Assembly (NCBI GenBank): GCA_016218825.1
Contig: JACRCV010000060.1
Span: 1 to 36,418, forward strand
DNA length: 36,418 nucleotides
From: Deltaproteobacteria bacterium
Lineage (GTDB): Bacteria; Myxococcota; XYA12-FULL-58-9
Direction of reading: 5' to 3'
Part shown: positions 15,112 through 32,956 of the stretch, piece after piece
How the letters are laid out: the number at the start of each line of letters is the position of its first letter
Numbering within the stretch: position 1 is the stretch's first letter
Notes under the pieces: model-generated
Database searches by the model: none
Seen by the model: only the letters and a program-made list of their open reading frames with translations
What the model was told of the DNA's origin: nothing
Translations under genes and position numbers: made by a program

Positions 15112-15675
15112 ATGGTGTTGATCATGCATCGCCTCGCCAGGCTCACCGCCGCCGCCCGCCGCATGCGCGGCGCCACCCTCATCGCCTTGATCTCGGCGGC
15201 CACCGCCGCCCACGCCGAGGACAAGATCTCGCCACCCAAGTGGAGCCTGGCGCCGGTTGCCGGCACCGTCGGCTGGTCGCACGCGCCGTTCGAAGCCGGC
15301 GCTTGCGACACCTGCCACAGCGTCAAGAAACCGAAAGGCCCGGGCAGCGCCCGCCAGCCGGTGTCCACGACCTGCCTTGTCTGCCACGACGAGCTACAGC
15401 AGGAGCTCGCCAAGAGCCAGCACAAGCACGCGGCGCTCGAGCCCTGCACCAACTGCCACAACCCTCACAACGGCGCCGACCGTAGCCTGCTCGTCGGCAA
15501 GCTCGCCGACGTCTGCGCCGGGTGCCATCGCCAGGCGTGCACCAAGAAGCACCCGGAGCGCGCCGATCCAAAGCTCAGCCCGGCCCTCTGTCTCGGCTGT
15601 CACGATCCGCACGCGAGCCAGAGAGACCACCTGCGCCTCGACAAGCCCAAACCCCAACCGGAAAGCAAGCCATGA
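15112..15675 (+). CDS. Periplasmic pentahaem c-type cytochrome
   Basis: A 187-residue secreted electron-transfer protein. The N-terminus (ARRMRGATLIALISAATAAHA) is a Sec signal peptide; ATG 15124 is an alternative start. Five CXXCH haem-attachment motifs are present: CDTCH, CLVCH, CTNCH, CAGCH and CLGCH. Three are followed by D or N-P-H (CTNCHNPH, CLGCHDPH), as in doubled-CXXCH families. The tail is Lys/Pro-rich. It shares the lead-in WSHAPFE.G.C with the next gene, so the two are related. Its stop overlaps the next start by 4 bases (ATGA). It probably acts with that protein in periplasmic electron transfer; donor and acceptor cannot be told. Confidence 0.9.
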   Translation: MVLIMHRLARLTAAARRMRGATLIALISAATAAHAEDKISPPKWSLAPVAGTVGWSHAPFEAGACDTCHSVKKPKGPGSARQPVSTTCLVCHDELQQELAKSQHKHAALEPCTNCHNPHNGADRSLLVGKLADVCAGCHRQACTKKHPERADPKLSPALCLGCHDPHASQRDHLRLDKPKPQPESKP

Positions 15676-16796: not shown

Positions 16797-17640
16797 CGCC
16801 GCGGCGCCGCGCGTGCTGCGCAGCTCGCTGGTCGCCGTCGCCGGCGTCGTCGTGCCGCTCACCGTGTGGCCGGCGGCGGGCGCGGCGTTCTACAACGTCA
16901 AGGTCGGCGATCCGATCGCGAACGTCACGCTGCCGACCATCCACGGCAAAGACGGCACGCTCCTCGGCAAGGGTGTCGGCGCCAGCGTCTTCGTGCTGTT
17001 CCGCCCCGATCAAGAGAACTCCAAGCTCGGGCTCGCAGAGATGGCGCGCGCCAAGCAGGCGCTCGCGGGGAAGAAGGTCTACTGGGTCGGCGTCGTGCCC
17101 GGAGGCTTCGAGCGAGCGACGGTCGAGACGGCGCTCGCCGCCGCCGGGCTCGAGATGCCGGTGCTCCTCGACAACGGCGACGCCCTCTACGGCAAGCTCG
17201 GCGCCATGTTGCACCCGACGGTCGCGGTGGTGGACGGCGCCGGCAAGCTCGCCGCCTACGAGCCGTTTCGCAAGGTCGACTACGGCGAGGTCGTCAAGGC
17301 GCGGGTGCGCCTGGTGCTCGGGGAGATCACCGCCGCCGAGCTCGAGGCGACGTTGAACCCGCCGGCCGCGATCCAGGGCGGTGACGGCGAGGTCGCGCGC
17401 CGCAACCTGAAGCTCGCGGAGCTGCTGTACAACGGCAAGCAGTACGCCAAGGCCGTCGACGCCGCCCTCAAGGCCATCGACAAGGCGCCGGACCTGGCGC
17501 GGGCGCACGCCCTTGCGGCCGCGGCGTACGCGGCGCAAGATAACTGTGCGTCCGCAAGACCTCACATAGACAAGGCGCTGTTGCTCGTCCCGGAGGAGGC
17601 CACCGCGCTCGCCGCCAAGAAGTCGTGCGGCGCACCCTAG
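16780..17640 (+). CDS. Exported Cys-less thioredoxin-fold/TPR protein, copy 1
   Basis: A 286-residue protein with a signal peptide (VLRSSLVAVAGVVVPLTVWPAAGA). Residues ~35-190 look like a peroxiredoxin/TlpA-type thioredoxin fold: a VGDPIANVTLPTIHGKDGT lead-in, a FVLFRPDQENS strand-loop where the catalytic Cys would normally be, and a cis-Pro region (LHPTVAVVDGAGKL). The active-site cysteines are absent. The C-terminal ~80 residues form TPR-like helices (LAELLYNGKQYAKAVDAALKAI) ending in a DNC...SC Cys pair. It overlaps the upstream cytochrome by 17 bases and has a paralogue at 17777. It is probably a periplasmic scaffold or redox-inactive partner of the cytochromes; that role is inferred. Confidence 0.8.
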   Translation: MRTRSSAAAPRVLRSSLVAVAGVVVPLTVWPAAGAAFYNVKVGDPIANVTLPTIHGKDGTLLGKGVGASVFVLFRPDQENSKLGLAEMARAKQALAGKKVYWVGVVPGGFERATVETALAAAGLEMPVLLDNGDALYGKLGAMLHPTVAVVDGAGKLAAYEPFRKVDYGEVVKARVRLVLGEITAAELEATLNPPAAIQGGDGEVARRNLKLAELLYNGKQYAKAVDAALKAIDKAPDLARAHALAAAAYAAQDNCASARPHIDKALLLVPEEATALAAKKSCGAP

Positions 17641-17667
17641 ACTGCTTTCGAGATGAAGCGATCGTCG

Positions 17668-17733
17668 TCCCCGCCCCACCCGGGGGCGGGGATTCAGGGG
17701 TGGGGGTGGGGAGCGCCGCGGCAGCCGCGGCGC
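17668..17733. repeat. Two strong GC-rich inverted repeats between paralogues
   Basis: First hairpin: a 10-bp perfect stem TCCCCGCCCC (17668-17677) with GGGGCGGGGA (17683-17692) around a 5-base loop. Second: a 10-bp perfect inverted repeat GCGCCGCGGC (17713-17722) and GCCGCGGCGC (17724-17733) around a single A. Neither is followed by a T run, so they are not canonical intrinsic terminators. They could reduce read-through, stabilise the upstream mRNA or belong to a dispersed repeat family. Confidence 0.6.
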
Positions 17734-17776
17734 GGGAATCGACGGCAGACGAAAGCGGTCTATCTCGCGGGGCCTG

Positions 17777-18604
17777 ATGCGCACATCGGTTGTCCTCTGG
17801 ACTCTCATTCTCTGGGCGTCGTCGGCGTCGGTGGCCGCGCCCGGCAACGCGTTCTACAACGCCGAGATCGGCAACCAGGTCGAGAACCTCACCCTCGACA
17901 AGCTCACCGGCGGCAGGCAGCCGTTCTTGGGCGACGCCGACGCCAACGTCTTCTTGTTCTTCCGTCCCGACCAAGAGAACTCGCGCGCGGTCTTGAAGCA
18001 GATGACGGCGTTGGCGCTGAAGCTCGGCGACAAGCGGGTGGCTTGGGTCGCGGTGGTCTCGGACGCCTATGCGAAGGAGGCGGTGGCGGCGGCGGTCGCC
18101 GAGGCCGGGCTGACGATGCCGGTGCTGATCGACAAGGGTGACGCGCTCTACGGCAAGCTCGGCGTGGTGCTGCACCCGGTGATCGGCATCGCCGACAAGC
18201 AGCACAAGCTCGTGGCCTACGAGCCGTTCCACAAGATCGACTACGCGGTCATCGTCGAGGCGCGCATCAAGCGGCTGCTCGGGCTCATCAGCGACGCCGA
18301 GCTCGCCGCGGCGCTCAATCCGCCGCAGGCCGTGGACGGCGGCGACAAGGTCGTCGCGAAGCGCCATCTGAAGATGGCCGAGATGCTGTTCGCGGCGAAG
18401 AGCTACGACAAGGCGCTGGAGTTCGCGGCGAAGAGTTTGGCGCACGACCCGGAGGCGGCCGGCGCCCACGGGCTCGTGGCGTTGATCCTCGCCACCCGCG
18501 GCGACTGCGCCGGGGCCAAGCCGGCCATCGACGCGGCGTTGAAGCTCGACGCCAAGGAGGCCCGAGCGCTCGCGGCGAAGGAGATGTGCGCGAAAGCGAA
18601 GTAG
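17777..18604 (+). CDS. Exported Cys-less thioredoxin-fold/TPR protein, copy 2
   Basis: A 275-residue paralogue of the 16780 gene with the same plan: signal peptide (VVLWTLILWASSASVAA), thioredoxin-like fold lacking catalytic cysteines (FLFFRPDQENSR), an ALYGKLGVVLHP block almost identical to copy 1, then TPR-like helices (MAEMLFAAKSYDKALEFAAKSL) and the same terminal Cys pair (GDC...MC). The shared FRPDQENS, DALYGKLG and YEPF.K.DY blocks show a tandem duplication. The 136-base gap to copy 1 contains two strong hairpins, so expression may differ. It converges on ftsH, whose stop lies 27 bases away. Its function is inferred to parallel copy 1. Confidence 0.8.
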   Translation: MRTSVVLWTLILWASSASVAAPGNAFYNAEIGNQVENLTLDKLTGGRQPFLGDADANVFLFFRPDQENSRAVLKQMTALALKLGDKRVAWVAVVSDAYAKEAVAAAVAEAGLTMPVLIDKGDALYGKLGVVLHPVIGIADKQHKLVAYEPFHKIDYAVIVEARIKRLLGLISDAELAAALNPPQAVDGGDKVVAKRHLKMAEMLFAAKSYDKALEFAAKSLAHDPEAAGAHGLVALILATRGDCAGAKPAIDAALKLDAKEARALAAKEMCAKAK

Positions 18605-20615: not shown

Positions 20616-21965
20616 TTAGCACGGCTGCCAAGGGATAGCTCCCTCGACCCTCACGGCCACCGCGCCGCGCGCCCGCGGCTGCACGGGGAAACCCGCGCCA
20701 CGCCGCAGGCCCACCGCCCAAAGGATCGAATCGCCGGCGACGACGAGCGGCCAGGCACGCCGGAGGGCGCGGGGGATCTTGGCGTTGGTGAACAGGTCGC
20801 CGACCTTGATCCGGCCACGGTTGCCGAACGGCTGCATGCGATCTCCGGGCACGACGGTCCTCACTCTGAGGGGAAGATGGGGGCCGGGGAGAGCGATGGC
20901 AACCATGTCGCGATCGTTTTCCGGCAAGCGCGGGCCCCGGCGCGCGGTCGTCTCGAGGGGCGCGGCGACCACGGTGATCCCGAGCCGCTCGAGCCGCAGC
21001 CGCCCGGGGACGGTCAACAACAGATCGTACGGCGCCTCGGCGTCGACCCACAGGCGACCCGCCTCCAGGCGAATGGTGCGGCCGGCGACCGACAGCGAGC
21101 CGGGGCGGCCGCTCGCGAGGCGGTGCAGGCGCGCGAGCGTGTCCCGACCGGCGTCGAGGCCGTGGCGTTGCAGCCAGGCTTTGAGGAGGCGGGAGCCGAG
21201 CGGCGCCGGCGTCGGCAGCCCGGCGACCGCGAGCGAGTCGAGAGGGCCGAGCCGGGCCTCGAGGTCACGACGCGCGAGGCGCGCCAGCAGGCGCTCGTCG
21301 GCGCGCGCCTGGGCGCCGAAGCGCGCGAACGCGGTCTCGAGGCGCGGGTTCAGCTGCCGCAGCACCGGCAGGACGCGGTGGCGGATGAGGGCGCGCGCCC
21401 GCCGTTCGTCGTGGTTCGAAGGGTCGGTCGCGAACGGGATCTGGTGCGCCGCGAGGTAGTCGAGGATTTGCCCGCGGCTGGTGTCGAGGAGCGGCCGGAT
21501 GAGCTTGCCGCGCCGCGGCCGGATGCCGCCGGCACCCCGCAGGCCCGCGCCCCGCGTCAGGTTCAAGAGGATGCTCTCCACCTGGTCGGTCGCGGTGTGG
21601 GCGACCGCGATGCGATCGGCGCCGACGCGCGCGGCGAACGACGCCAGGGCCCGGTAGCGGGCGCGACGGGCAGCGTCCATCAGGTTGCCGCGACGGGTGA
21701 CGGCGACCGGCTCGATCGCGAAGGGCACGTCGAGCTCGCGCGCGAGACGCGCGGCGCGCGCCAGCTCGGCGCCGGCCTCGGGGCGCAAACCGTGGTCGAT
21801 GCCGAGCGCGAACAGCGCGCGCCAGCCCAGGGCCGCGGCGGCGCTCGCGGCCAGATGCAGCAGCGCCTGCGAGTCCGGGCCGCCGCTCGTCGCGACGACC
21901 ACCGTCGAGCCGGGCGGCGCCAGACGGGCGAAGCGGGCCACGGCGCGTTGCAGATCAGGCGGCAT
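20616..21965 (-). CDS. tilS: tRNA(Ile)-lysidine synthase
   Basis: Cytoplasmic enzyme that modifies C34 of the tRNA-Ile CAU anticodon to lysidine with ATP and lysine, so the tRNA reads AUA. The PP-loop motif [12 protein letters not shown] is near the N-terminus, followed by the family blocks [33 protein letters not shown] and IRPLL. The C-terminal part contains [14 protein letters not shown] and the typical W-x-VG-like end. ATG 21965 with AAGGAA upstream is preferred; the open frame extends further but the added sequence is not family-like. The product of 449 residues is typical. It is transcribed toward ftsH and divergently from the radical SAM operon. Confidence 0.95.
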
Positions 21966-22045
21966 CGCCAATTCCTTATGCTGCTCTTCGTCCGAGATCC
22001 AGGTCGGCCGGGCGTCGGCTCTTCCCGGCTGCCCCCGGCCGCAGG

Positions 22046-22080
22046 TATACTGCCGGTGCTTTCGAACGTCACTCGGGAGG
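22046..22080 (+). promoter_or_regulatory. Possible -10 element and RBS of the radical SAM operon
   Basis: TATACT (22046-22051) matches the sigma-70 -10 consensus in five of six positions. It lies about 35 bases before ATG 22086, in the divergent gap with tilS. A GGGAGG ribosome binding site is at 22075-22080. No good -35 hexamer is visible at the right distance, so the promoter may need an activator or another sigma factor. Confidence 0.35.
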
Positions 22081-22085
22081 TTGCG

Positions 22086-22706
22086 ATGGCGCGGTCGGTC
22101 GACGGCATCAAGCCGTTCTCGAACAAGAAGGGCGGCACGAGCGCGACCGCGCACGAGCATAGATCAGCCGCGCCGCTGGCGCCCGGGGGGCGAGGCTACG
22201 ACGCCAACGACGCGCCGCAAGCCCGCACGCTCAAGACCGGTGACGCGCGGGCGGCAGCCGCGAACCCGCCGCTCGCGGCGCCGAAGATCTCAAGGGCCCT
22301 GCCCGACCGGCACTCGGGCCAAGCCGTCGACGTCGCGCTGCTGCGGCGCGAATGCCAGGCGCGCGGCCTCAAAGGCAAAGCGGTGCAGGCGGTCGCGAAC
22401 GGCGTGCGCGCGGTGGCGAGCGGCGCGTCGATCCCGGCGGCCGAGGTCCAGCGTCGATTCCTGGCGCTGCTCGACGCGACCGGGGCGGCGCGCTTCGAGC
22501 TGGCGCTCGACGGGCTCGAGGCGGCCGCGGTGTTGGCCGAAAGAGACGCGGCCAGGTTTGGCGCCCACGTCGGCGCCCTCGGCCGCGAGATCACGACCCA
22601 AGGTCCGGAGCTCGGCTACGAGGCGCTCGCCGACTTTGTGGTCGCGGCGTTGGCGGCCGGGGGCGCGGCCAAACCGGGTCATGGCCTGGCGGTGCCGACG
22701 GCGTAG
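22086..22706 (+). CDS. Hypothetical protein, first gene of the radical SAM operon
   Basis: A 206-residue protein I do not recognise. GGGAGG five bases upstream supports the start. The first ~75 residues are polar, Ala/Arg/Gly/Pro-rich and probably disordered. Residues ~78-195 are predicted helical (DVALLRRECQARG, FLALLDATGAARFELALDGLEAA, LGYEALADFVVAALAAGG) and contain a single cysteine. There is no signal peptide or membrane segment. It is 18 bases upstream of the first radical SAM gene and thus co-transcribed with three radical SAM proteins and two glycosyltransferases. As the leading gene of a modification operon it could be a substrate, chaperone or recognition partner; nothing in the sequence decides between these. 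Confidence 0.7.
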   Translation: MARSVDGIKPFSNKKGGTSATAHEHRSAAPLAPGGRGYDANDAPQARTLKTGDARAAAANPPLAAPKISRALPDRHSGQAVDVALLRRECQARGLKGKAVQAVANGVRAVASGASIPAAEVQRRFLALLDATGAARFELALDGLEAAAVLAERDAARFGAHVGALGREITTQGPELGYEALADFVVAALAAGGAAKPGHGLAVPTA

Positions 22707-22724
22707 CACGGCCGAGGCGGGACG

Positions 22725-23852
22725 ATGTACGCGTATCACGAGCTCCGCAAGCTCCACTTCGAGATCACCGACAAGTGCAACGCCACCTGTCCCCAGTGCC
22801 CGCGCAATGACTGCGGCGGGACCGTCAACCCGCGCCTGCCGCTCGTGGAGCTCTCGGTCGACGACGTGCGGCGGATGGTTCCGGAGAGCCTGGTCCGGCA
22901 GCTGCGGCACATCTACGCCTGCGGCAACTACGGCGATCCGGTCGTCGCCAAGGACACCCTCGCGATCTTCTCCTACTTCCGCCGCGCCAACGACAAAGCC
23001 TATCTGGGCCTGCACACCAACGGCAGCGCCCGCAAGCCGGAGTGGTGGGCGGAGCTCGGCCGGCTGATGCGCCACCCCACCGGCTACGTCCGCTTCAGCA
23101 TCGACGGCCTCGAGGACACCAACGCCGTCTATCGCCGCAACACCAGGTGGCGCGTCATCATGCAGAGCGTCGAGGCCTTCATCGGCGCCGGCGGCAACGC
23201 CGAGTGGGACTTCCTGGTGTTCCGCCACAACGAGCACCAGGTGGAGGCGGCGCGCGCGCGCGCCAAGGCCATGGGCTTCACCCGTTTCACCGCCAAGGCG
23301 ACCGCGCGCTTCTTCGACGGCCAGCGCTTGCAGCACATCGACCGCACTCCGGTCAAAGACAAATCCGGCAACGTGGTCTCGTACCTCGAGCGGCCGCTCT
23401 CGCCCGAGTGGAACAACGAGGCGTTGACTCGCATGCGGGCGGTGACCGAGCACTACGGCACCTCCACCCGGTATCTCGACACGACGACGATCAGCTGCAA
23501 GGTCGCGGCCGAGAAAGCGATCTACATCTCCGCCGACGGTGTGGTGCTGCCGTGCTGTTGGCTCGGCGCCCGCAGCTACATGGCGTCCGCGAGCCAGCAG
23601 GAGGCCTTCGCGCAAATGGTCGCCGCCGCCGGTGGCGTTGCGGCGTTGAACGCCAAGCACCATTCCATCGAGGCGATTGTCGCCGGTCCGTTGTTCCAGC
23701 GCGGCTTCCCGGAGAGCTTCGCGAAGCGCTCGTTGACCGAGGGACGGATCTACACCTGCGCGTGGATCTGCGGTGAGCTGACCCCGAGCACCGTCCAGTG
23801 GAAGAACAGCGAGCGGTTTCCGGCGCCCGTGCTGCCACAGCCGGTCGGGTGA
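22725..23852 (+). CDS. Radical SAM protein with C-terminal auxiliary Cys domain, copy 1
   Basis: A 375-residue radical SAM enzyme. The [4Fe-4S] motif is CNATCPQC (C18, C22, C25), placed right after a HFEIT strand as usual. Other core features are the CGNYGDP block near residue 66, LHTNGS (97-102) and FSIDGLEDTN (124-133). The C-terminal half has further cysteines, C258, C277, C278, C345 and C349 (ISCK, LPCCWLG, CAWICG), which fit a SPASM/twitch-type domain holding an extra iron-sulfur cluster. Such enzymes often modify ribosomal peptides or proteins or epimerise residues. It lies 18 bases after the first operon gene and 3 bases before its paralogue. The substrate is unknown; peptide modification is inferred from the auxiliary domain. 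Confidence 0.9.
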   Translation: MYAYHELRKLHFEITDKCNATCPQCPRNDCGGTVNPRLPLVELSVDDVRRMVPESLVRQLRHIYACGNYGDPVVAKDTLAIFSYFRRANDKAYLGLHTNGSARKPEWWAELGRLMRHPTGYVRFSIDGLEDTNAVYRRNTRWRVIMQSVEAFIGAGGNAEWDFLVFRHNEHQVEAARARAKAMGFTRFTAKATARFFDGQRLQHIDRTPVKDKSGNVVSYLERPLSPEWNNEALTRMRAVTEHYGTSTRYLDTTTISCKVAAEKAIYISADGVVLPCCWLGARSYMASASQQEAFAQMVAAAGGVAALNAKHHSIEAIVAGPLFQRGFPESFAKRSLTEGRIYTCAWICGELTPSTVQWKNSERFPAPVLPQPVG

Positions 23853-23855
23853 GCC

Positions 23856-24953
23856 GTGTACCGCTACGACGAGATCCGCGTTCTGCACCTCGAGCTGACG
23901 GCGCGCTGCAACGCCGCCTGCGCGATGTGTCCGCGCAACATCCAGGGCGGTCAGGTCAATCCCAACCTGCCGCTGTCGGAGCTCTCGCTCGCGGACGTGC
24001 GCGCCATCTTCCCGGACGACTTCATCCGCCGACTGCGGCGGATGTACATGTGCGGCAACTACGGCGACGCCATGGTGGCCAAGGACGTCGTGCCGGTGTT
24101 CGAGCACTTCCGCGCCGTCCATCCGGGCATCGACCTCCGGCTGACCACCAACGCCAGCGGCCGAACCGCCGACTGGTGGGCGCGGCTGGCGAAGGTCGTC
24201 GACCGCTGCATCTTCTCGATCGACGGCCTCGAGGACACCAACTCGATCTATCGCCGCCGCACAAAGTGGCGCCTGGTCATGCGGGCGGTGGAGGCGTTCA
24301 TCGGCGCCGGCGGCAGGGCCGAGTGGGAGTTCTTGGTGTTTCGCCACAACGAGCACCAGGTCGAAGCGGCGGCGGCGCTCAGCCCGCGACTCGGCTTCAA
24401 GAAGTTCACCCCGAAGCGCACCGAGCGTTTCCTGGTCAACGGCCGGCTGGTGCCGGAGAAGCCGGTGCAAGATGGGCGCGGGCAGGCGGCGTACGCCATC
24501 TCGATGCCGAGCGACCCTCGCTATCACAACGCTGCCACCGTGGGGGTGGCCGCGCTCGCCGACCGTGGGACGACGTATCGGTCTTACGCCGAGCAGACCG
24601 GGGTGAGCTGCAAGGCCGTGGGCGAGCACAAGATCTTCGCGAGCGCCGAGGGACTGATCTTCCCGTGCTGTTGGGTCGGTGGCCTGTACTCGTCGGGTCT
24701 GAAGGCCGAGGCCGGTGAGGTCTGGAAGCTCATCCACCGGCTGCCGGAGGGCAAGCACTCCCAGGACGCGCGGCGCCATTCGCTCCGGGAGATCGTCGAG
24801 GGGCCGCTCTTTTGCGCCGCGGTGCCGGACACCTGGGTGCCGGGGTCGCCGGCGCGCAGAGAGTTCACCCTCTGCGCGCGTACCTGCGGCCAGTACGACG
24901 CGATGCAGGCGGTGCCGGCACCGGCGCTGTTCTCGGGTGTCGCGCATGGCTGA
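23856..24953 (+). CDS. Radical SAM protein with C-terminal auxiliary Cys domain, copy 2
   Basis: A 365-residue paralogue of the preceding gene, with radical SAM motif CNAACAMC (C18, C22, C25) and the same landmarks: NPNLPLSELSLADVR, CGNYGDAMVAKD, LTTNASG, FSIDGLEDTNSIYRR, FIGAGG.AEWEFLVFRHNEHQ. Auxiliary cysteines C252, C271, C272, C340 and C344 match copy 1. The start is GTG, 3 bases after the upstream stop. The central region (about residues 185-250) and the C-terminal tail diverge most, which suggests different substrate positions or partners rather than redundancy. Its 3' end overlaps the third radical SAM gene by 8 bases. Confidence 0.9.
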   Translation: MYRYDEIRVLHLELTARCNAACAMCPRNIQGGQVNPNLPLSELSLADVRAIFPDDFIRRLRRMYMCGNYGDAMVAKDVVPVFEHFRAVHPGIDLRLTTNASGRTADWWARLAKVVDRCIFSIDGLEDTNSIYRRRTKWRLVMRAVEAFIGAGGRAEWEFLVFRHNEHQVEAAAALSPRLGFKKFTPKRTERFLVNGRLVPEKPVQDGRGQAAYAISMPSDPRYHNAATVGVAALADRGTTYRSYAEQTGVSCKAVGEHKIFASAEGLIFPCCWVGGLYSSGLKAEAGEVWKLIHRLPEGKHSQDARRHSLREIVEGPLFCAAVPDTWVPGSPARREFTLCARTCGQYDAMQAVPAPALFSGVAHG

Positions 24954-26025
24954 GCCGCGGCCCCTGTTCTGCGCCAAGCCGTTCAAGCGCTTCGAGGTCA
25001 GCCGCCGCCAAGGAGGCCTCACGCACCTGTGCTGCTCGGCCTGGCTCAAGCGCGCCGTCGGCAACCTCAAGGAGCAGTCGGTGGCGGCGGTGTGGAACAG
25101 CGTCGCGGCGCAGGAGATCCGCGCCTCGATCTTGGACGGCTCCTTCTCCTACTGCGATCGGCAACGCTGTCCGTTCCTGCAGACTGTCTCCGGCCCGGTC
25201 AGCGCGCTCGCCGACGTCAAGGACCCGGAGCTGCTCGCCGCGGTCCGCGAACGCTGGACCGAGCTCCCCTACGGGCCGCGCGACATCAGCTGCGCCTACG
25301 ATCGCTCCTGCAACCTCGCCTGCCCGTCGTGCCGCACCGCGGTCGTGGTGGAGACCGATCGCGAGCAGGAGATCGTCGCCATCCAACGCAAGCTCAACGA
25401 CGAGGCGCTCAAAGACGCCCACGTGCTGTCGATCACCGGGTCCGGGGATCCCTTCGGGAGCCCGTATTTCAGGCGCTGGCTGCAGTCGATGCAGAGGGCG
25501 GACATGCCGCGGCTCCGCTCGATTCACCTGCACACCAACGCCCAGCTCTGGACCCCCGGGACCTGGGCCACGATCCCGGCCGAGATCCGGGCGCTCGTGG
25601 GCTCGACGGAGATCTCCATCGACGCGGCGACGGCCGCGACCTACGCGGTGAATCGACAGGGCGGCGACTTCGAGCGCCTGCTCCGGAACCTGGAGCTCGT
25701 CCGGCAGCTGCGCCGCGAGGGCCCGCTCAGACGCGTGAAGATCAGCATGGTGGTCCAGGAGAACAACTTCACCGAGATGCCGGAGTTCGTGCGCCTCGGC
25801 CAGCGGTTGGATGTCGACTGTGTCTACTTCAGCCAGCTCGTCGACTGGCAGACCTTCGCGCCCGACGAGCTCGCGGCGCGCAGCGTGCATCGACCGGAGC
25901 ATCCCCGGCACCGGGAGCTCGTGGCCGTGCTCAAAGACCGGATCTTCGACGATCCGAAGGTCGACCTCGGGAATCTGACCGAGCCCAGAAAGCGCGGTCT
26001 CTTTGAGGCCGGCGCCGCGGAGTGA
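24946..26025 (+). CDS. Radical SAM protein with N-terminal auxiliary Cys domain
   Basis: A 359-residue protein with inverted domain order. The N-terminal ~80 residues hold C9, C29, C30, C70 and C75 (LFCAKPFKRFEV, LTHLCCSAWL, YCDRQRCPFL) with VWNS and IRASILDGSF between, which is SPASM-like. The radical SAM motif CNLACPSC (C122, C126, C129) follows, then ITGSGDPFGS, HLHTNAQ and ISIDAATAATY. The spacing C-x19-CC resembles C-x18-CC in the C-terminal domains of the two upstream paralogues, so the parts look rearranged. ATG 24946 lies inside the end of the previous gene (8-base overlap), and the stop abuts the first glycosyltransferase. The enzyme class is sure; the reaction is unknown. Confidence 0.88.
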   Translation: MAEPRPLFCAKPFKRFEVSRRQGGLTHLCCSAWLKRAVGNLKEQSVAAVWNSVAAQEIRASILDGSFSYCDRQRCPFLQTVSGPVSALADVKDPELLAAVRERWTELPYGPRDISCAYDRSCNLACPSCRTAVVVETDREQEIVAIQRKLNDEALKDAHVLSITGSGDPFGSPYFRRWLQSMQRADMPRLRSIHLHTNAQLWTPGTWATIPAEIRALVGSTEISIDAATAATYAVNRQGGDFERLLRNLELVRQLRREGPLRRVKISMVVQENNFTEMPEFVRLGQRLDVDCVYFSQLVDWQTFAPDELAARSVHRPEHPRHRELVAVLKDRIFDDPKVDLGNLTEPRKRGLFEAGAAE

Positions 26026-26027
26026 TC

Positions 26028-27017
26028 ATGCTGCAGGTCGTGGAGCCCGCCACCGCCTACCGTCCTGCCGCCGACCTCGGGATCGTCACCTGCTATTTCA
26101 ACCCGGGCGGCTTCAAGTCGAAGCGGGTCAACTACGACTCGTTCATGCAGCCGATCCGCGCCGGCGGCCTCGACGTCATCACCGTCGAGTGTGCGTTCGG
26201 CGAGGCGCGCTTCGAGCTCGAGCCCGGCGCCGACGTCGTGCAGCTTTGCAGCCCGTCGATCATGTTCCAGAAAGAGCGCCTCTTGAACCTGGCACTCGCC
26301 CGCCTCCCGGAGCGCTGCACCAAGGTCGCCTGGCTCGACTGCGACGTCCTCTTCGACGACCCCGATTGGCCGGGCGCGACCTCACGGGCGCTCGACGCTC
26401 ACTGCATCGTTCAGCCCTTCGCGACCGCGTTCCGCCTGCCGCCGCGGCAGCGTCAATACACCGGCGACGGCGCCGGCTGGCGGAGCTTCGCCGCCGTATT
26501 TCGGGAGTCGCCGCGGCTGTTTTTGACCGGCAACTTCGACGCCCACGGGCACACCGGCTTCGCCTGGGCGGCGCGGCGGGACCTGCTGCGTGCCCATGGG
26601 TTGTACGACGGCATGGTGGCCTGCTGCGCCGACCACATCATCGCCCACGCCGCGCTCGGCGACTGGAGCTCGGCCTGTTTTCGCCGGCTCGCCGGGGTCA
26701 ACAACCCATATGCGACCGACATCCGGGCGTGGTGCCGGCGCTTCTACGCCGACGTTCAGGGGAACCTCGGCGTCGTCCACGCCAATCTGCTCCATCTCTG
26801 GCACGGCAGCATGGCCAGGCGTCGCTACGTCGAGTGCGCCAAGCAGCTTCTCGGCTTCGCCTACGATCCGAAGACCGACCTGCGCCTCGGCGCGGCCGGC
26901 ACCTGGGAGTGGGCGAGCGCCAAACCCGAGCTGCACGCGTGGGTCAAAGAGTACTTCGCGCAGCGCAACGAAGACGACCAGGACGGCGAGGGCGAGCAAG
27001 CGCCCGCGCTGCCATAG
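26028..27017 (+). CDS. GT-A-like glycosyltransferase, copy 1
   Basis: A 329-residue protein of the IVT-x-YFNP type. It has a beta-strand start (LGIVTCYFNPGGFKSKRVNY), conserved FGEA and FQKERLLNLAL helix, and AWLDCDVLFDD, whose D-C-D (104-106) is a plausible metal-binding DxD of a GT-A fold. Later blocks are GNFDAHGHTGFAWAAR, CCADHIIAHAALGDW and LLHLWHG. No signal or membrane segment is present, so it is cytoplasmic. ATG 26028 follows the radical SAM stop by 2 bases and has GGAG at 26019-26022; GTG 26022 is an alternative with a 4-base overlap. The C-terminus is acidic. The sugar donor and acceptor are unknown, and the glycosyltransferase assignment rests on fold-like motifs. Confidence 0.75.
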   Translation: MLQVVEPATAYRPAADLGIVTCYFNPGGFKSKRVNYDSFMQPIRAGGLDVITVECAFGEARFELEPGADVVQLCSPSIMFQKERLLNLALARLPERCTKVAWLDCDVLFDDPDWPGATSRALDAHCIVQPFATAFRLPPRQRQYTGDGAGWRSFAAVFRESPRLFLTGNFDAHGHTGFAWAARRDLLRAHGLYDGMVACCADHIIAHAALGDWSSACFRRLAGVNNPYATDIRAWCRRFYADVQGNLGVVHANLLHLWHGSMARRRYVECAKQLLGFAYDPKTDLRLGAAGTWEWASAKPELHAWVKEYFAQRNEDDQDGEGEQAPALP

Positions 27018-27019
27018 CC

Positions 27020-27991
27020 ATGGCGATCCTCGATCTGCAACCGGCGGCTCGCTACGAGCCGGTCGCCGACCTCGGCATCGTCACGAGCTACTTCAACCCG
27101 AGCGGCTTCGCGAGCAAACGCGCCAACTACGAGCGCTTCGTCGCGCCGATGCGCGCCGCCGGGTTCTCCTGCCGCACGATCGAGTGCGCCTTCGGCGAGG
27201 CGCCGTTCGAGCTCGGGGCGCACGCCGACGTGATCCGAGTCCGCTCGCGCTCGGTGATGTTCCAGAAGGAGCGTCTGTTGAACCTCGCGATCGGCCGCCT
27301 GCCGCCGACGTGCACCAAGGTCGCCTGGATCGACGGCGACGTGCTGTTCACCGATCCCCTCTGGGCGGTGCGCGCGTCGGAGCGCCTCGATACCTGCCAG
27401 GTGATCCAGCCCTTTGACACCGCCTATCGCCTGCCGCCGCGCGTGTATCATTACGACGGCAGCGGCATTGCCTGCCGGAGCTTCGCGGCGACCTTTGTCG
27501 ACGATCCCGAGGCGTTCGCGCGCGGCAACTTCCATCAGCACGGCGACACCGGCTTTGCCTGGGCGGCGCGCCGGCAGCTGGTCGCGAAGCACGGTCTCTA
27601 TGATGCGATGATTCTAGGCAGCGCCGACCACGTCATGGGGCACGCGGTCTTGGGGGATTGGACCTCGGGCTGTATTCGCACCACCGCCGGCGTCAACAAC
27701 CCGTGCGCTGCAGATCTGCGCGCCTGGGGCCGCCGCTTCTATGCCGACGCCAAGGGGAGCTTGGGGTTTGCGGCCGGTTCCCTGTTGCACCTCTGGCACG
27801 GCAAGGCGGTCAACCGTCGTTACGTGGAGCGCACCAAGAAGCTCGTCGGGTTCGGCTTCGATCCCAAGACCGATCTACGGATCGGGGAGTCCGGCGCCTG
27901 GGAATGGGCCAGCCCCAAGCCGGAGCTGCATACCTGGGTCGAGGCCTACTTCCGCGACCGACAAGAAGACGACGAGGAGGGCGAGGCGTGA
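27020..27991 (+). CDS. GT-A-like glycosyltransferase, copy 2
   Basis: A 323-residue paralogue of the preceding gene, 2 bases downstream. Shared blocks include ADLGIVTSYFNPSGF, FQKERLLNLAIGRLPP, AWIDGDVLF with the D-G-D metal motif (105-107), TGFAWAAR, SADHVMGHAVLGDW, GVNNP and LLHLWHGKAVNRRYVE, and an acidic tail (DRQEDDEEGEA). The near-equal length and conserved motifs show a tandem duplication with both copies intact. It ends the tight operon; the next gene is convergent. The two copies may add different sugars or act on different acceptor sites; the sequence does not decide. Confidence 0.75.
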   Translation: MAILDLQPAARYEPVADLGIVTSYFNPSGFASKRANYERFVAPMRAAGFSCRTIECAFGEAPFELGAHADVIRVRSRSVMFQKERLLNLAIGRLPPTCTKVAWIDGDVLFTDPLWAVRASERLDTCQVIQPFDTAYRLPPRVYHYDGSGIACRSFAATFVDDPEAFARGNFHQHGDTGFAWAARRQLVAKHGLYDAMILGSADHVMGHAVLGDWTSGCIRTTAGVNNPCAADLRAWGRRFYADAKGSLGFAAGSLLHLWHGKAVNRRYVERTKKLVGFGFDPKTDLRIGESGAWEWASPKPELHTWVEAYFRDRQEDDEEGEA

Positions 27992-28027
27992 GCCACAGGG
28001 GGTGACCGAGGCGCCATCGCCGTTGCG

Positions 28028-28732
28028 CTACCGCATCGCCTTTTCGAAACCCCGCGACAGATGCGCCGCGAGCTCGGGGAACTTCCTCTCCGTCTCGTAG
28101 GCGCTGCCCGCCTGCTTGAGGAGCGCCGAGGCCTGCTTGTGGAACGCGGCCGCCTCGGTCTTGGAGAGCCGGCCGTAGAGCTCGTCGATCAGCGCCTTCA
28201 GGCGGTTGGTCTCTTCCTTGGTGATCCGGACCTTCTGGCCGGCAAAGGCGGCCATCGGATCCGGCGCTGCGCCCTTGACGGTCCACTTGATGTCGTCCCC
28301 GAGGTGACTGCCGAGCACGGCCTCGAGCACATCGGCGGCTGCCGCGCCGGTCTTTACCGCGCTCAAATCGATGTTGGTCTTCGCGGGGGCGCTCGCTTGG
28401 GCCTGGAGCTGCACCCCGCCCTTCGCGACCTTGGCCTGAAAGGCGCCGTCGAGCTTGACCGCCAGGCGTGACGCGGTCATCAGCTCTTGCGGCGCGCCGC
28501 TGTAGGTGCCCACCAGCTTCGCGACCCGGTTGCGGAAGTGCGCCCGCTCGACGGTGTTCGGGAGCTTGTCCAACAGCTCGTTGTACTTGGCCTCGAGGCC
28601 GGTGGCCTCTTTGCCGCTCAGCTTGATGACCTGGCCGTCCTGCCGGAAGGTGTCCTGGTTGAGCTGACTCTCGAAGTATTGTTCGAAGAGCTCCGCGGCC
28701 TCGTCACTCTTGCGTTTCGCTCTGTCGACCAT
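28028..28732 (-). CDS. Hypothetical helical protein convergent to the operon
   Basis: A 234-residue protein I do not recognise, on the opposite strand between the glycosyltransferase operon and the coiled-coil gene. AGGTGA upstream supports ATG 28732. It is helical and highly charged, with an N-terminal KRKSDEAAELFEQYFESQL helix, an Ala/Gln-rich centre (GVQLQAQASAPAKT), and a Lys/Glu-rich C-terminal helical pair (KEETNRLKALIDELYGRLSKTEAAAFHKQASALL). It contains no cysteine, signal peptide or membrane segment. It shares a 191-base divergent control region with the 564-aa protein gene, so the two may be co-regulated. It is a possible partner or substrate of the modifying enzymes; no function can be assigned. 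Confidence 0.7.
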   Translation of the reverse strand: MVDRAKRKSDEAAELFEQYFESQLNQDTFRQDGQVIKLSGKEATGLEAKYNELLDKLPNTVERAHFRNRVAKLVGTYSGAPQELMTASRLAVKLDGAFQAKVAKGGVQLQAQASAPAKTNIDLSAVKTGAAAADVLEAVLGSHLGDDIKWTVKGAAPDPMAAFAGQKVRITKEETNRLKALIDELYGRLSKTEAAAFHKQASALLKQAGSAYETERKFPELAAHLSRGFEKAMR

Positions 28733-28825
28733 CGTATTTCACCTCGTCTCGGCCTGCAGGGCCGGTGCACCTCGGAGGCTACCAGGGGGGTCGATCCCTT
28801 CGCAACCCTCACGTGCGATTGCCCT

Positions 28826-28837
28826 GGACAATTGTCC
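28826..28837. promoter_or_regulatory. Palindromic operator candidate in a divergent gap
   Basis: GGACAATTGTCC is a perfect 12-bp palindrome, flanked by CCCT on the left and CGAGGG on the right (an imperfect extension of the dyad). It lies roughly midway between the divergent starts at 28732 and 28924. A dimeric regulator could bind here to control both genes. A 12-bp palindrome can occur by chance, so this is only a candidate. Confidence 0.3.
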
Positions 28838-28923
28838 CGAGGGCGCGAGTTGCCGCTTGTCGCGGATCCATCGCGAGTGTTATCAACGAGAGGTCGAATA
28901 GAATAACGCCGAGGAGAAGAACG

Positions 28924-30618
28924 ATGGCCACGACGATTGGCGCTTTTTGTGACCTCTTGGTCGCCGGCAACGTCGACATCCAGAAGCTCACCGCGAAGGA
29001 GCTCCAGTCACGCACCGACGTCCCGCCGGATCTCCGCGGCATGGGTTGGGACAAGCTGTTGCGTCAGCTGCGGGACACCGACGCCAAGATGCGCGCCGCG
29101 CAGCGCAGCGTCGACCTCGGCCCCAAGGTGGCGGCGGCCGACCAGCGCCGCGGCGCGACCGGTGCGGGCAGCGTGGTCGGGGTCATCGGCGGCCAGGGGA
29201 AGCGCGCCGACGGCGCCGCCGCGGCGACCGCATTTGCCACGGTGCCGCCGGTGGAGATCCCGCAGCGCGACAGCTTCTCCGCGAGCGAGTTCGTCCAATT
29301 GGCCGAGAAGCAGAAGAGCGGCCTGCAGGACAAGCTCACCGAGCTCGCCGGGGTCCGGCAGCGCCAGCAGCACCAGGCGGAGGTGACGCTGCGCGACCGT
29401 GACGTCGCGTTGGAGCAGCTCCTGCAAGCGATCCTGCCGGACATGACGCCGGCGTCGGCGGCCACCGCGACCAAGCTCCTAGGTTGGCCGGCGCGGCAGC
29501 TGCCGGACGTCGCCGCCGAACAGAAGAAGCTCGAGCGCCCGCTTGCCGAGGCGCAGGCGGCGCTGAAGGCTGCCCTCGCCGGTCTCGGCGCCAAGGTCGG
29601 GGTCGCCGCCGACGCGGCGTTGGGCGTCGCGGAGCGCAAGCTCACGGCGGCCACCAAGCAAGAGCAGGAGGTCGCCGCCGAGCTGCAGAAGTTCGGCAAG
29701 GCCAAGGCGCTGATCGAGGCCGGATGGGACACCTCGAGCTACTCGCATTGGAAGCTCAGCCCGAGCTGGTTCTCGGACAAGAACGCCGCCAACGAGGTGG
29801 TCGCCAAGCTCGGGTTGGCGAATTTCGGCGCGGTCCGGGCCGCGTACGAGAAGCTCGGCACGGCGCTTCACGGCGCCCGGTCTCAGGTCGCGGACCTCAG
29901 GGCCCAGGTGGGCGAGGCGCGCGATCTCAAGACCCGCGCCGACGGTCTACAGGCACAGCTGGACGATCTGCCGGCGCGAACCCTCGCCAAGGCCCGCGAC
30001 GCGGTCGCGACCTATCTGCGCGGCGCCCCCAAGGAGGAGCTCGGCAAGACCCTCACCGACGAAGGCATCGTTCGGCTGTACAAGGCATACGGCGCGTTGA
30101 GCGCCAAGGTCGAATACATGACCGAGCTCGGCCAGAAGATGATCGAGCTCGAGCGCGACGTCGCCAAGGACAAGCAGCAGCTCGACCAGGAGATCGCGCG
30201 CTACAAGGGCAAGGACCGGAGCGCGGTGCTGCCGCAGGACAAGGTCAAGTACAAGCTCGGCAACACCCGTTGGCAGCAGCGCGACAAGCAGTACCGCGGT
30301 TACACCTCGGCCTACGATCGCGTCTACGGCTACCGGAGCTATGACAGCTCGCCCAGCCTGCTCACCACGTGGTTCTGGTGGAACGTGTTCTCCTCCGGCC
30401 ACACCACCAACAACTACTACAACGGCTATTTCACCCCGACCGACGTCGCAGAGCACGTGCAGGCGAATCCCGACTACGCCTACACCGACCGACCTGCGAA
30501 GGACGCCGACGCGGCCGCGGCCGTGGCGCAGAGCGACGCGGTCGGCAGCCGCGATCCCCAAGACGTGAGCGGGTCGGCGGCGAACGCGTGGGGCGACAGC
30601 TCGCGGATCTCGTCGTAA
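28924..30618 (+). CDS. Large coiled-coil protein with aromatic-rich C-terminal region
   Basis: A 564-residue protein I do not recognise. GAGGAG precedes ATG 28924. Residues ~115-470 are largely coiled coil, Ala/Gln/Glu/Lys/Leu-rich (QQHQAEVTLRDRDVALEQLL, ELERDVAKDKQQLDQEIARY). Residues ~450-515 are strikingly aromatic (YRGYTSAYDRVYGYRSYD, LLTTWFWWNVFSSG, NNYYNGYF), followed by an Ala/Asp/Ser-rich polar tail. It has one cysteine, near the N-terminus, no signal peptide and no clear membrane helix, although the LLTTWFWWNVF stretch could touch a membrane. The next gene, a glycosyltransferase, starts 9 bases after its stop. It could be a structural protein or a substrate of the neighbouring modifying enzymes. 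Confidence 0.75.
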   Translation: MATTIGAFCDLLVAGNVDIQKLTAKELQSRTDVPPDLRGMGWDKLLRQLRDTDAKMRAAQRSVDLGPKVAAADQRRGATGAGSVVGVIGGQGKRADGAAAATAFATVPPVEIPQRDSFSASEFVQLAEKQKSGLQDKLTELAGVRQRQQHQAEVTLRDRDVALEQLLQAILPDMTPASAATATKLLGWPARQLPDVAAEQKKLERPLAEAQAALKAALAGLGAKVGVAADAALGVAERKLTAATKQEQEVAAELQKFGKAKALIEAGWDTSSYSHWKLSPSWFSDKNAANEVVAKLGLANFGAVRAAYEKLGTALHGARSQVADLRAQVGEARDLKTRADGLQAQLDDLPARTLAKARDAVATYLRGAPKEELGKTLTDEGIVRLYKAYGALSAKVEYMTELGQKMIELERDVAKDKQQLDQEIARYKGKDRSAVLPQDKVKYKLGNTRWQQRDKQYRGYTSAYDRVYGYRSYDSSPSLLTTWFWWNVFSSGHTTNNYYNGYFTPTDVAEHVQANPDYAYTDRPAKDADAAAAVAQSDAVGSRDPQDVSGSAANAWGDSSRISS

Positions 30619-30627
30619 GCAGCATCA

Positions 30628-32301
30628 ATGGCACACAGTCTGCGGATCGTCGCCTATGCCGTCGACGGGGGCGGCATCGGCCACCTGAACCGCATGGTGG
30701 CGCTGTCGCGCTGGCTGCGCCGTTATGCGGCCCACATGGGCCGGCGCGCCGAGATCTACGTCCTCACCACGAGCGAGGCGGACGGGCTGCTGCTCACCGA
30801 GAAGCTCGCGGGCTTCAAGCTGCCGTCGCCGACCGTGGCCCACGATGCCGGCATCGACCGGCTCGGTTATCTGGCAATGGCGAAGCAGTGGGTCTGGCAT
30901 TCGCTCGGCCTGCTGCGTCCCGATCTGTTGATCGTGGATACGTGGCCGCGGGGTGCCTTCGGCGAGCTGCTCTCCGCCCTCGATCTCTGCCGGCGCAAGG
31001 CGTTCATCTACCGGCCGGTGAAGGACGAGGTCGCGGCGAGCGCCGACTTCCAGGCGATGCTGCCGCTCTATGATCGCGTCCTGGTGCCCGAAGAGGAGGG
31101 CGTGGTGCACGTGCAAGTGCCAAAGGCGGCCGAGGCGCTCGTGAGCTACGTCGGGCCGGTGATGGTGCGGGAGCGGGCCGAGCAGCACAGCCGGATCGAG
31201 GCCCGGGATCACCTCGGCGTCGTCGGTGATCGGCTGGCGGTGTACGTCTCTGCCGGCGGCGGTGGCGACCCGGGCGCCGAGGAGCATCTCCTCAGCGTGG
31301 TCACGGCGCTCTGCGACGATCCGAGCTTGCACCTCGTCGTCGGTGCCGGGCCGCTGTATCGGGGACGGGTTCTCGCGGGCGAGCGCATCACCTGGTTGGC
31401 GCACGGCGGCGTCTCCGAGCTGATGGCGGCGTTCGATCTGGCGATTTGCGGGGCGGGTTACAACACCTTCGCCGAGCTGATGCACGCCGGGGTGCCGACG
31501 ATCTTCGTGCCGCAGCACAAGCTCGCCGACGATCAGGCGGCGCGGGCTGCCCGCGCGGTGGCGGCGGGCGCCGCGATCGTGCTCGGGGAAGGGCTCCTCG
31601 GCAGCGAGGTCGAGCGTGCCGTGGCGGACTTCAGAGATCCGGAGCGCCGCCGACAGGCCGGCTTGGCAGCGCGCCGGCTCGTGCCGGAGAACCACGCCCG
31701 CCGGGCGGCGGCCGAGCTGCTCCGCTTGCTGGTGCCGGCGCGTGACGTGGATCGCGCCGAGGCGGCGATCGGCGACGAGGTCTTGCGGGCCGCTCGCGAC
31801 TGTCGAGTCGGCTACCAGGTCTTCGTCGATCTGATGCGCGCCCTCGACACGCGGGACAGCGGCGCGTCGGTCGAGGAGGAGACCTCGGCAGGGGAGGTCA
31901 GCGAGCTCGCGGTGGCGCTCTTGCGCTTCATCACGGACCGCGCGCTGCCGGTGGTGACCGCGGTGAAGCTGGTGGCCGCGTTGTCGCAGAAGCTGCCGCG
32001 GGCGCTGCCTGCCGAGCGTGCCGCGGCGGCTCGCCGATTGCTGCCGGAGCTCGCGGCCTTCAACGATTGGACCGCGGCGACGGCGTTTCTGCGGATGATC
32101 AACAGTGAGCGCCGGCTGCCGGCGGCGGAGCTGGCAGCGCTCATCGGCGACTTCTTGAGCAGGCTCCGCGCGCGTCGGGAGGATCTGTACCGCGGCATCG
32201 CCTACGTCTCGGAGGCGGTGAGCGCCGGCACCTATCCGGCGGGGATCGCAGATCTTCCCGTGACCGGGACGCCGGACGCATTCGAGGCGGGGACGACGTA
32301 G
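30628..32301 (+). CDS. GT-B glycosyltransferase (GT1/GT28-like) with helical C-terminal domain
   Basis: A 557-residue protein with the two Rossmann halves of a GT-B enzyme. The N-terminal half has a Gly-rich acceptor-side loop (YAVDGGGIGHLNRMVALSRWL) as in MurG-like enzymes. The C-terminal half has VYVSAGGGGDPGAEEH, WLAHGGVSELMAAFD and the donor-binding block ICGAGYNTFAELMHAGVPTIFVP followed by DDQAARA. Beyond about residue 370 there is an extra ~190-residue all-helical domain that is not part of the usual fold. There is no signal or transmembrane segment. It is 9 bases downstream of the coiled-coil protein gene and thus probably co-transcribed; that protein is an obvious candidate acceptor. 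The donor sugar is unknown. Confidence 0.82.
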   Translation: MAHSLRIVAYAVDGGGIGHLNRMVALSRWLRRYAAHMGRRAEIYVLTTSEADGLLLTEKLAGFKLPSPTVAHDAGIDRLGYLAMAKQWVWHSLGLLRPDLLIVDTWPRGAFGELLSALDLCRRKAFIYRPVKDEVAASADFQAMLPLYDRVLVPEEEGVVHVQVPKAAEALVSYVGPVMVRERAEQHSRIEARDHLGVVGDRLAVYVSAGGGGDPGAEEHLLSVVTALCDDPSLHLVVGAGPLYRGRVLAGERITWLAHGGVSELMAAFDLAICGAGYNTFAELMHAGVPTIFVPQHKLADDQAARAARAVAAGAAIVLGEGLLGSEVERAVADFRDPERRRQAGLAARRLVPENHARRAAAELLRLLVPARDVDRAEAAIGDEVLRAARDCRVGYQVFVDLMRALDTRDSGASVEEETSAGEVSELAVALLRFITDRALPVVTAVKLVAALSQKLPRALPAERAAAARRLLPELAAFNDWTAATAFLRMINSERRLPAAELAALIGDFLSRLRARREDLYRGIAYVSEAVSAGTYPAGIADLPVTGTPDAFEAGTT

Positions 32302-32360
32302 CGTCGTTCTCCGCCCCATCGACCGTGGTCCGTCCGGCGGAGCGGAAGGGGGCGGGTGTA

Positions 32361-32389
32361 TTGACAGATCCGGCCACGCCGGCTAGATC
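32361..32389 (+). promoter_or_regulatory. Sigma-70-like promoter of yceD-rpmF
   Basis: A perfect TTGACA (32361-32366) is followed by a 17-base spacer and TAGATC (32384-32389), a weak -10. Transcription would begin near 32396. A 6-bp inverted repeat CGCCAC (32391-32396) and GTGGCG (32406-32411) falls at the predicted 5' end of the mRNA. The position, 37 bases before the yceD start, is right for the ribosomal-protein operon. Confidence 0.5.
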
Positions 32390-32425
32390 ACGCCACTTTT
32401 CGGTGGTGGCGCGAGGGCCTTCGAG

Positions 32426-32956
32426 ATGCGCGTGTCTTTGGATGAGATCGGCCCCGACGGGCTGGACCTGGATGATACGGTCGACGTCCACGACCTGCGT
32501 CAGGCTCTCGGCCCCAACGCGCCCTTTCAACCGACGCAGGCCGGCCACCTGGTGGCGCACCTGGAGCGCCTGGACGACGCGGTGCGGGTGTCGGGCCGGG
32601 CGCGGGTGGACCTCGAGGCGCGCTGCTCGCGCTGTCTCGGGCCGGTGCCGGTGACCCTCGACACCCCGGTGGACGTGACCCTGTTCCCGAAGGGCGCCGA
32701 GCCGCCGCCGGCATCGGACGGCGAGGTGGCGCAAGACGACCTGGGGGTCGCCACCTACGAAGACGGCGAGATCGATCTCGCGGCGGTGCTGCACGACGAG
32801 GTCTTCCTCGAGCTGCCGATGAGCCCGCTGTGCTCCGAGAGCTGCGCCGGCTTGTGCCCCGAGTGTGGAAAGGACTTGAACAGCGGTCCGTGCGGCTGTA
32901 CGCCGCAACAGAAAGACGAGCGCTGGCAGGCGCTGAAGCGCCTGAAGCTGAGCTGA
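32426..32956 (+). CDS. yceD: YceD/DUF177 family protein
   Basis: A 176-residue cytoplasmic protein of the DUF177 family, which almost always precedes rpmF and is linked to ribosome or 23S rRNA metabolism; its exact role is not settled. The family features are visible: a beta-rich N-terminal half with VSGRARVDLEARCSRCLGPV containing a CxxC pair (C67, C70), then an acidic loop, E-x-FLELPM-x-PLC and a C-terminal Cys cluster (CAGLCPECGKDLN, CGC) that probably binds zinc. Its stop lies 31 bases before rpmF, which confirms the assignment. Confidence 0.93.
   Translation: MRVSLDEIGPDGLDLDDTVDVHDLRQALGPNAPFQPTQAGHLVAHLERLDDAVRVSGRARVDLEARCSRCLGPVPVTLDTPVDVTLFPKGAEPPPASDGEVAQDDLGVATYEDGEIDLAAVLHDEVFLELPMSPLCSESCAGLCPECGKDLNSGPCGCTPQQKDERWQALKRLKLS

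Follow-up and report, generated by a model that had tools for sequence, protein, structure and literature searches.

The 36,418-bp stretch analysed here (the window) is an entire contig (G000:C35) of the 6.5-Mb genome of Deltaproteobacteria bacterium, a member of the Myxococcota. Between its tilS and yceD homologues lies an island of eight genes (22725-32301) that encodes three radical S-adenosylmethionine (rSAM) enzymes, two GT-A-fold transferases, a 234-aa protein, a coiled-coil protein and a MurG-like (GT28-like) transferase. This island is one version of an undescribed Myxococcota-wide GT28-like/rSAM system, and it is without a name in the Pfam, NCBIfam, PHROGs, PADLOC and literature searches that were made, as an earlier note written from the sequence alone had supposed. 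That note drew the unit as a six-gene operon at 22086-27991, which the eight genes replace as the natural unit. The system is real, well supported and conserved in parts, and we infer its substrate and chemistry: in the best model, to which we give a probability of roughly 0.4, the rSAM enzymes and transferases would tailor the C-terminal tail of a partner protein, the coiled-coil protein of the window.

A conserved core of partner protein, GT28-like transferase and rSAM enzymes

The GT28/MurG-like transferase (30628-32301, plus strand, 557 aa; PF04101, 41.9 bits) carries an extra C-terminal domain, and its gene is present in 21 of the 195 Myxococcota genomes searched. A phylum-wide search for an rSAM enzyme of the CITCW SPASM type found it in 19 genomes, all of them among those 21. 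The two that lack it, the window's genome (G000) and a genome from another family of the same order (G004), carry instead an rSAM of the type encoded by the second and third of the six operon genes (g2 and g3). Of these 19 genomes, 18 have the GT28-like and CITCW rSAM genes adjacent and often overlapping; G010 carries its rSAM gene on another contig. The 19 genomes include many close relatives (seven genera), and they should not be read as 19 independent events. Myxococcaceae-like loci (family code f13) hold a tetratricopeptide repeat (TPR) protein, the GT28-like gene, the CITCW SPASM rSAM, a second rSAM and in some cases a GT2 enzyme, while in G016, G054 and G056 the GT28-like gene is accompanied by a protein of the same family as the window partner and by two or three rSAMs. 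The Myxococcaceae rSAM used as query returned nothing in the plasmid search or the viral search. The conserved core is the partner protein and GT28-like transferase with rSAMs, and in the window it lies at 28921-32301, largely outside the six-gene coordinates.

The window partner is a 617-aa open reading frame (ORF; plus strand) whose product, counted from the most likely start, an ATG near 28921, is about 565 aa long (28921-30618). It is directly upstream of the GT28-like gene, as is the partner gene in every locus examined, and is a candidate substrate. A profile built from the G004, G016, G054 and G056 counterparts found the window partner at E=2.5e-26. The bodies of these proteins are divergent and have a coiled-coil look, with a conserved aromatic block near the C-terminus that reads WFWWNVF...YYNGYFTPTDV in the window and LLWWDVMSDGQLDGNFISEV in G054; the window protein ends AWGDSSRISS. 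The TPR-type and coiled-coil-type partners have no detectable homology to each other (hhalign probability 0.3). Partners end in D-x-S in 18 of 18 loci examined other than the window and G004, whereas only 1 of the roughly 321 remaining predicted proteins in those loci does so, although the gene predictor was crude and the motif was noticed after the fact. Most of these partner tails have the form [WYF]-x-D-x-S, an ending shown by 17 proteins of the whole set. An aromatic residue followed by x-Asp is found in most partner tails (WGD in the window) and is absent in G010.

The island is an insertion between tilS and yceD

The gene tilS (20616-21965, minus strand), located as the yceD neighbour in relatives, forms the left border of the interval. 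The right border (32426-32956, plus strand) is a gene that we take, on recognition of its sequence, to be a yceD (DUF177) homologue, and the window flanks more generally are presumably ftsH, tilS, yceD and dprA homologues. In the compared genomes tilS and yceD are divergent neighbours. They are 225 bp (G002), 121 bp (G007) and 89 bp (G006) apart in three genomes of the same order. The spacing is 1.0 kb in G001, a genome of the same genus, and 1.56 kb in G004, but reaches 10.46 kb in the window (interval 21966-32425). The gene set between them is therefore an insertion relative to other genomes of the order. Its GC content and third-position GC are the same as those of the host, which rules out a recent import from a source of different base composition.

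The interval contains the six genes described in the earlier note, the 234-aa gene on the opposite strand, the partner ORF and the GT28-like gene. The six plus-strand ORFs are present where that note placed them, with intergenic distances of 18, 3, -8, 2 and 2. Just two gaps in the set exceed 40 nt, one of about 190 nt (28733-28920) and one of 124 nt (32302-32425), and no small precursor gene of the kind found with ribosomally synthesised and post-translationally modified peptides (RiPPs) is apparent in the island gaps, in line with the first reading. Promoter, terminator and repeat scans returned only tandem gene duplications and chance-level sites.

The first of the six genes (22086-22706, plus strand) encodes a 206-aa protein with a disordered-looking Ala/Pro-rich N-terminus and a small helical domain; it had no family match, and a protein search of the 195 Myxococcota genomes found no homologue. 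The 1-kb tilS-yceD gap of G001 holds one 268-aa ORF (L195:6811-7617) that scored 84 against the 206-aa protein, compared with 43.6 +/- 7.7 for shuffled sequences (0 of 500 as high), while the helical domain alone gave a weaker likeness (5 of 500 shuffles as high). Because it resembles an ORF in the same gap of a genome of the same genus, the 206-aa gene probably occupied the gap earlier and stands outside the rSAM/glycosyltransferase (GT) unit. The 234-aa protein (28028-28732, minus strand) looks helical and has an internal duplication, its halves scoring 56 against 28.4 +/- 5.3 for shuffles (0 of 500). It was found in 2 of the 195 genomes, the window's own and G004, where it stands beside the GT pair (40% identity).

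Three rSAM enzymes with auxiliary domains

The rSAM genes of the island are g2 (22725-23852, 375 aa), g3 (23856-24953, 365 aa) and g4 (24946-26025, 359 aa), all on the plus strand. The g2 and g3 products are tandem duplicates (45% identical) with a C-terminal SPASM/twitch-like auxiliary domain, whereas in g4 this domain is N-terminal, an arrangement that Pfam and the cysteines bear out as first described. All three have a CxxxCxxC motif and a Cys-rich auxiliary domain: C18/C22/C25 with auxiliary C258, C277, C278, C345 and C349 in g2, and auxiliary C9, C29, C30, C70 and C75 with an intact CxxxCxxC at 122-129 in g4. Against the Pfam Radical_SAM cut-off of 29.5 bits, g2 (32.7) and g3 (30.3) score above and g4 (25.5) just below; against the SPASM cut-off (PF13186, 21.5 bits), g2 (22.3) and g4 (26.4) score above. 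SPASM was not detected by Pfam in g3, but the auxiliary cysteine positions are nonetheless conserved. The island's rSAMs belong to the radical SAM superfamily and the SPASM/twitch subfamily.

The cut-off of no named rSAM maturase in NCBIfam was passed, the best match being TIGR04317 with 44.6 (g2) and 38.1 (g3) bits against a cut-off of 380. The best NCBIfam match of g4 is the twitch domain-containing radical SAM protein family (NF033640, N_Twi_rSAM), which has the same auxiliary-domain-first order; however, its 68.6 bits are far below the curated cut-off of 170 and do not give membership, while a phage-array enzyme scores 424.6. The structural model of g2 (pLDDT 90) matched BlsE, SkfB, SuiB, MoaA, viperin and anSME. 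Its best match in the PDB is the cytosylglucuronate decarboxylase BlsE (E=9.7e-11), but with 16% identity and a TM-score of about 0.5, and its matches to the peptide maturases SkfB and SuiB are almost as good. The second rSAM of the Myxococcaceae loci matches the STM4011-family radical SAM (NF038073) at 47.7 bits, far below the cut-off of 200, and differs from the rSAM type of the window. Literature searches on rSAM/GT systems in myxobacteria and on STM4011/4012 turned up no described match among the papers listed.

Close relatives of g2/g3 were found only in G000 and G004 among the 97 Myxococcota genomes searched for them, and close relatives of g4 in 2 of the 195. In G068, which belongs to another family, a g4 homologue forms the C-terminal portion of an Stf0-sulfotransferase fusion (41%); a further homologue is encoded on a Paracoccus plasmid (39%). 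A fusion of an Stf0 sulfotransferase to a g4-type N-terminal-SPASM rSAM is encoded at L020:9665-11476 (minus strand) in a Myxococcaceae-like genome, where its neighbours are another sulfotransferase and two GTs in tandem. On a Paracoccus zhejiangensis plasmid (L164:11569-13101) a g4-type rSAM is beside GT25 and GT28-like transferases, and genes for DUF4150, DUF2169, a kinase and a caspase-family protein are a few kb away. DUF4150 and DUF2169 are linked to type VI secretion.

A tandem pair of predicted GT-A glycosyltransferases

The two remaining genes of the six, g5 (26028-27017, 329 aa) and its tandem duplicate g6 (27020-27991, 323 aa, 60% identical), are on the plus strand and had no Pfam or NCBIfam match. 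The AlphaFold2 model of g5 (pLDDT 84.2, pTM 0.87) was compared with the PDB using Foldseek, and the matches listed were almost without exception GT-A glycosyltransferases (WrtF, 9omk, being the best at E=1.2e-6), with TM-scores of only about 0.4. The g5 sequence has DCD at 104-106 and HLWHG at 256-260, and g6 has DGD at 105-107; both Asp residues of this DxD are invariant in 23 sequences. On the model, g5 has a GT-A fold with a DxD metal-binding motif and is a predicted glycosyltransferase, which upholds the view that the pair is GT-A-like.

This GT family occurs in 4 of the 195 Myxococcota genomes, and a search of genome contigs for g5 homologues led to a single locus. Homologues of g5 (P0005-type GTs) were also found in phage contigs, in Xanthomonas phage XaC1 and on Cupriavidus and Burkholderia plasmids. 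A g2/g3-type rSAM was present in 0 of 15 phage records with a P0005-type GT, so joint transfer of the GT and rSAM from one known phage type is unsupported. Several other features were seen near these homologues. A coiled-coil-like protein of 256-304 aa comes after the P0005-type GT on the Burkholderia and Cupriavidus plasmids (L166:10004-11856, L165:11998-13704), and these two proteins resemble each other. One viral contig (L050:7324-9039) has the GT as a 571-aa ORF about 250 aa beyond the family length, a possible fusion. Several phage contigs also have an ORF of about 200 aa some 3 kb from the GT (L033:13764-14402, L031:13285-13908, L037:13811-14401, L053:13772-14401) with the look of a sulfotransferase P-loop and a weak Pfam match in one of two tested, which echoes the sulfotransferases beside the GT pair of G068.

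Relatives of the island in G004 and G068

In G004 six relatives of island genes are located elsewhere in the genome (contig 5, 66-73 kb). They are counterparts of the 557-aa transferase (54%), the partner (26% over 166 residues), g3 (61%), g5 (71%), g6 and the 234-aa protein. The locus has a single rSAM, of g2/g3 type, and no g4, and the only gene order common to it and the window is rSAM-GT-GT. In G068 the g4 homologue is beside a tandem GT pair. These comparisons do not support the six-gene set as a conserved unit: one relative shares only that short order with it, a third genome has the g4 homologue together with a GT pair, and the 206-aa gene likely belongs to the gap.

The g2/g3 enzymes belong to a predominantly viral family

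At least 583 relatives of g2/g3 were found in IMG/VR viral contigs, and the 80 that were kept are 34-49% identical. A GT-like gene and a methyltransferase-like gene were each found in 54 of these 80 loci and a conserved 74-aa ORF in 30. Many of the contigs have T4-like replication genes and several rSAM genes consecutively (e.g. L092, L099, L109). The T4-like, GT-like and methyltransferase-like labels are ones that we assume from sequence recognition, and Pfam gave no significant match for the representatives of viral-locus genes tested. A quick tree, with sampling almost wholly viral, placed the three bacterial g2/g3-type sequences in a clade (SH-aLRT 87) nested among viral sequences. On a Nocardia plasmid, a relative with 35% identity is next to methyltransferases and a further rSAM. 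The g2/g3 enzymes belong to a predominantly viral rSAM family.

The 74-aa viral protein (L116:7777-7998 and 29 other loci) is encoded at or near the upstream side of the g2/g3-type rSAM and is very highly conserved (LQKEaARALsameAtNnnIykfNkqAhHnSqnWYkAVI..YGDLPS), with no Pfam or PHROGs match. It is possibly a substrate or chaperone of the phage rSAM.

T4-like environmental phages with many rSAM genes, 12 of them in one virus, have been described (PMC5332604). The island resembles such arrays in that the g2/g3 family is found in T4-like viral contigs, with consecutive rSAM genes and GT-like genes. However, the GT-like families of the phages show no detectable relationship to g5/g6 (clusters c2 and c4, hhalign probability below 2), and no GT28-like gene or partner was seen in the phage loci inspected.

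Other genes of the window

Away from the island, the window has at 15112-18604 a pair of related multi-CxxCH cytochrome-like ORFs and, after them, a pair of related redoxin/TPR-like secreted proteins (47% identical), an apparent paired duplication, and a single open frame of 1833 aa with an apparent lipoprotein start at 7649-13150.

Discussion

The earlier note allowed that the target may be a whole protein, and this is now the leading model because a partner with a conserved tail accompanies the GT28-like/rSAM core. The core consists of the GT28/MurG-like transferase, the partner encoded just upstream and one to three rSAMs, with GT-A or GT2 enzymes added in some lineages. In the window and G004 the rSAM slot is filled by the predominantly viral family together with the tandem GT-A pair that has phage and plasmid relatives. 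The rSAMs may act by radical C-H chemistry on the C-terminal tail of the partner, which is rich in aromatic residues; they may, for example, join an aromatic residue to Asp as in a three-residue cyclophane. The transferases may glycosylate the tail, for example at the conserved terminal Ser. SPASM rSAM enzymes are known to cross-link Trp-x-Asp/Asn (OscB), Tyr-x-Asp (YxdB) and Phe-x-Asn (PMC11002830), and an aromatic-x-Asp cross-link, as made by OscB and YxdB, is the best precedent for the rSAM step. The triceptide enzymes (XncB, OscB, MscB, YxdB; PMC11002830) are SPASM rSAMs like those of the island, and an aromatic-x-Asp motif such as they target is present in most partner tails. However, the short precursor with leader and core of those systems was not found in the island gaps, the partner is a protein of about 400-570 aa, the island rSAMs show no sequence-level membership in that group, and the island includes a GT28-like transferase.

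Several observations weigh against tailoring of the partner tail. In the window partner WGDSS is followed by RISS, so that D-x-S is not terminal, and the G004 partner ends PES. The G010 tail is MADRS, without an aromatic residue, in a genome whose rSAM gene is elsewhere. Fourteen of the 18 D-x-S tails belong to one homologous family and are not independent, for a motif defined post hoc. The structural matches of the rSAMs include sugar and nucleotide enzymes (BlsE, viperin, MoaA) besides peptide maturases. The model as a whole draws on sequence and structure prediction, with the partner as a candidate substrate of presumably expressed enzymes. A bolder proposal, which we consider doubtful, is that these loci represent an undescribed class in which whole proteins (TPR or coiled-coil) with an aromatic-x-Asp-x-Ser tail would be cross-linked by rSAMs and glycosylated by GT28-like plus GT-A/GT2 enzymes, with an rSAM module exchangeable between myxobacteria and T4-like phages.

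The transferases might instead build an oligosaccharide or surface glycan whose sugars the rSAMs modify (by epimerisation, deoxygenation or decarboxylation), with the partner as a scaffold only. This is possible, and nearly as likely as the partner-tail model. The top structural match of g2 acts on cytosylglucuronate, GT28-like enzymes are present in these loci, often with GT-A/GT2 enzymes, and in phages the g2/g3 family sits with arrays of GT-like genes; pelagimyophage host-recognition clusters likewise combine rSAM cassettes with glycosyltransferases thought to alter the host O-chain (PMC7029224). However, no genes for nucleotide-sugar synthesis, flippase or polymerase were recognised in the island, SkfB, SuiB and anSME match the g2 model nearly as well as BlsE, and a glycan target leaves the conserved partner tail unexplained. 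Tailoring of a small molecule by g4 and the GT pair, as part of a specialised-metabolite cluster, is unlikely: the G068 g4 homologue and GT pair are indeed among genes for a DegT aminotransferase, a sulfotransferase, ThiF and an FMN-dependent dehydrogenase, but no such scaffold-building enzymes were recognised in the window island or the G004 locus.

It is less likely still that the island is a captured phage module for host recognition or virion decoration, kept as a remnant. The position of the g2/g3 clade inside viral diversity and the GT homologues in phage contigs and phage XaC1 would fit this, but no phage structural or replication genes were recognised in the window, the composition is host-like, the GT28-like and partner genes are myxobacterial, and none of the 15 phage records with a P0005-type GT has the matching rSAM; the tree, being almost only viral, also gives no direction of transfer. 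It is very improbable that the island is an ordinary RiPP cluster whose short precursor was overlooked. SPASM rSAMs are present and the 74-aa ORF lies close upstream of the rSAM in phage arrays, but the window and G004 loci have no room for a conserved small gene and nothing like that ORF. Prophage, defence-system and named-maturase readings were each tested and rejected. PADLOC matched no anti-phage defence system, with g3 giving only a weak match to a viperin model (20.5 bits, E=6.4e-5).

The data presented here link a large, functionally unexplained phage rSAM family to a bacterial chromosomal system of only eight genes, among them a conserved transferase and a protein that is the candidate substrate. 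Should the tail of this partner prove to be the substrate, the system would be one of few in which radical chemistry and glycosylation act together on a whole protein, and it would offer a way to test what T4-like phages modify with their rSAM arrays.

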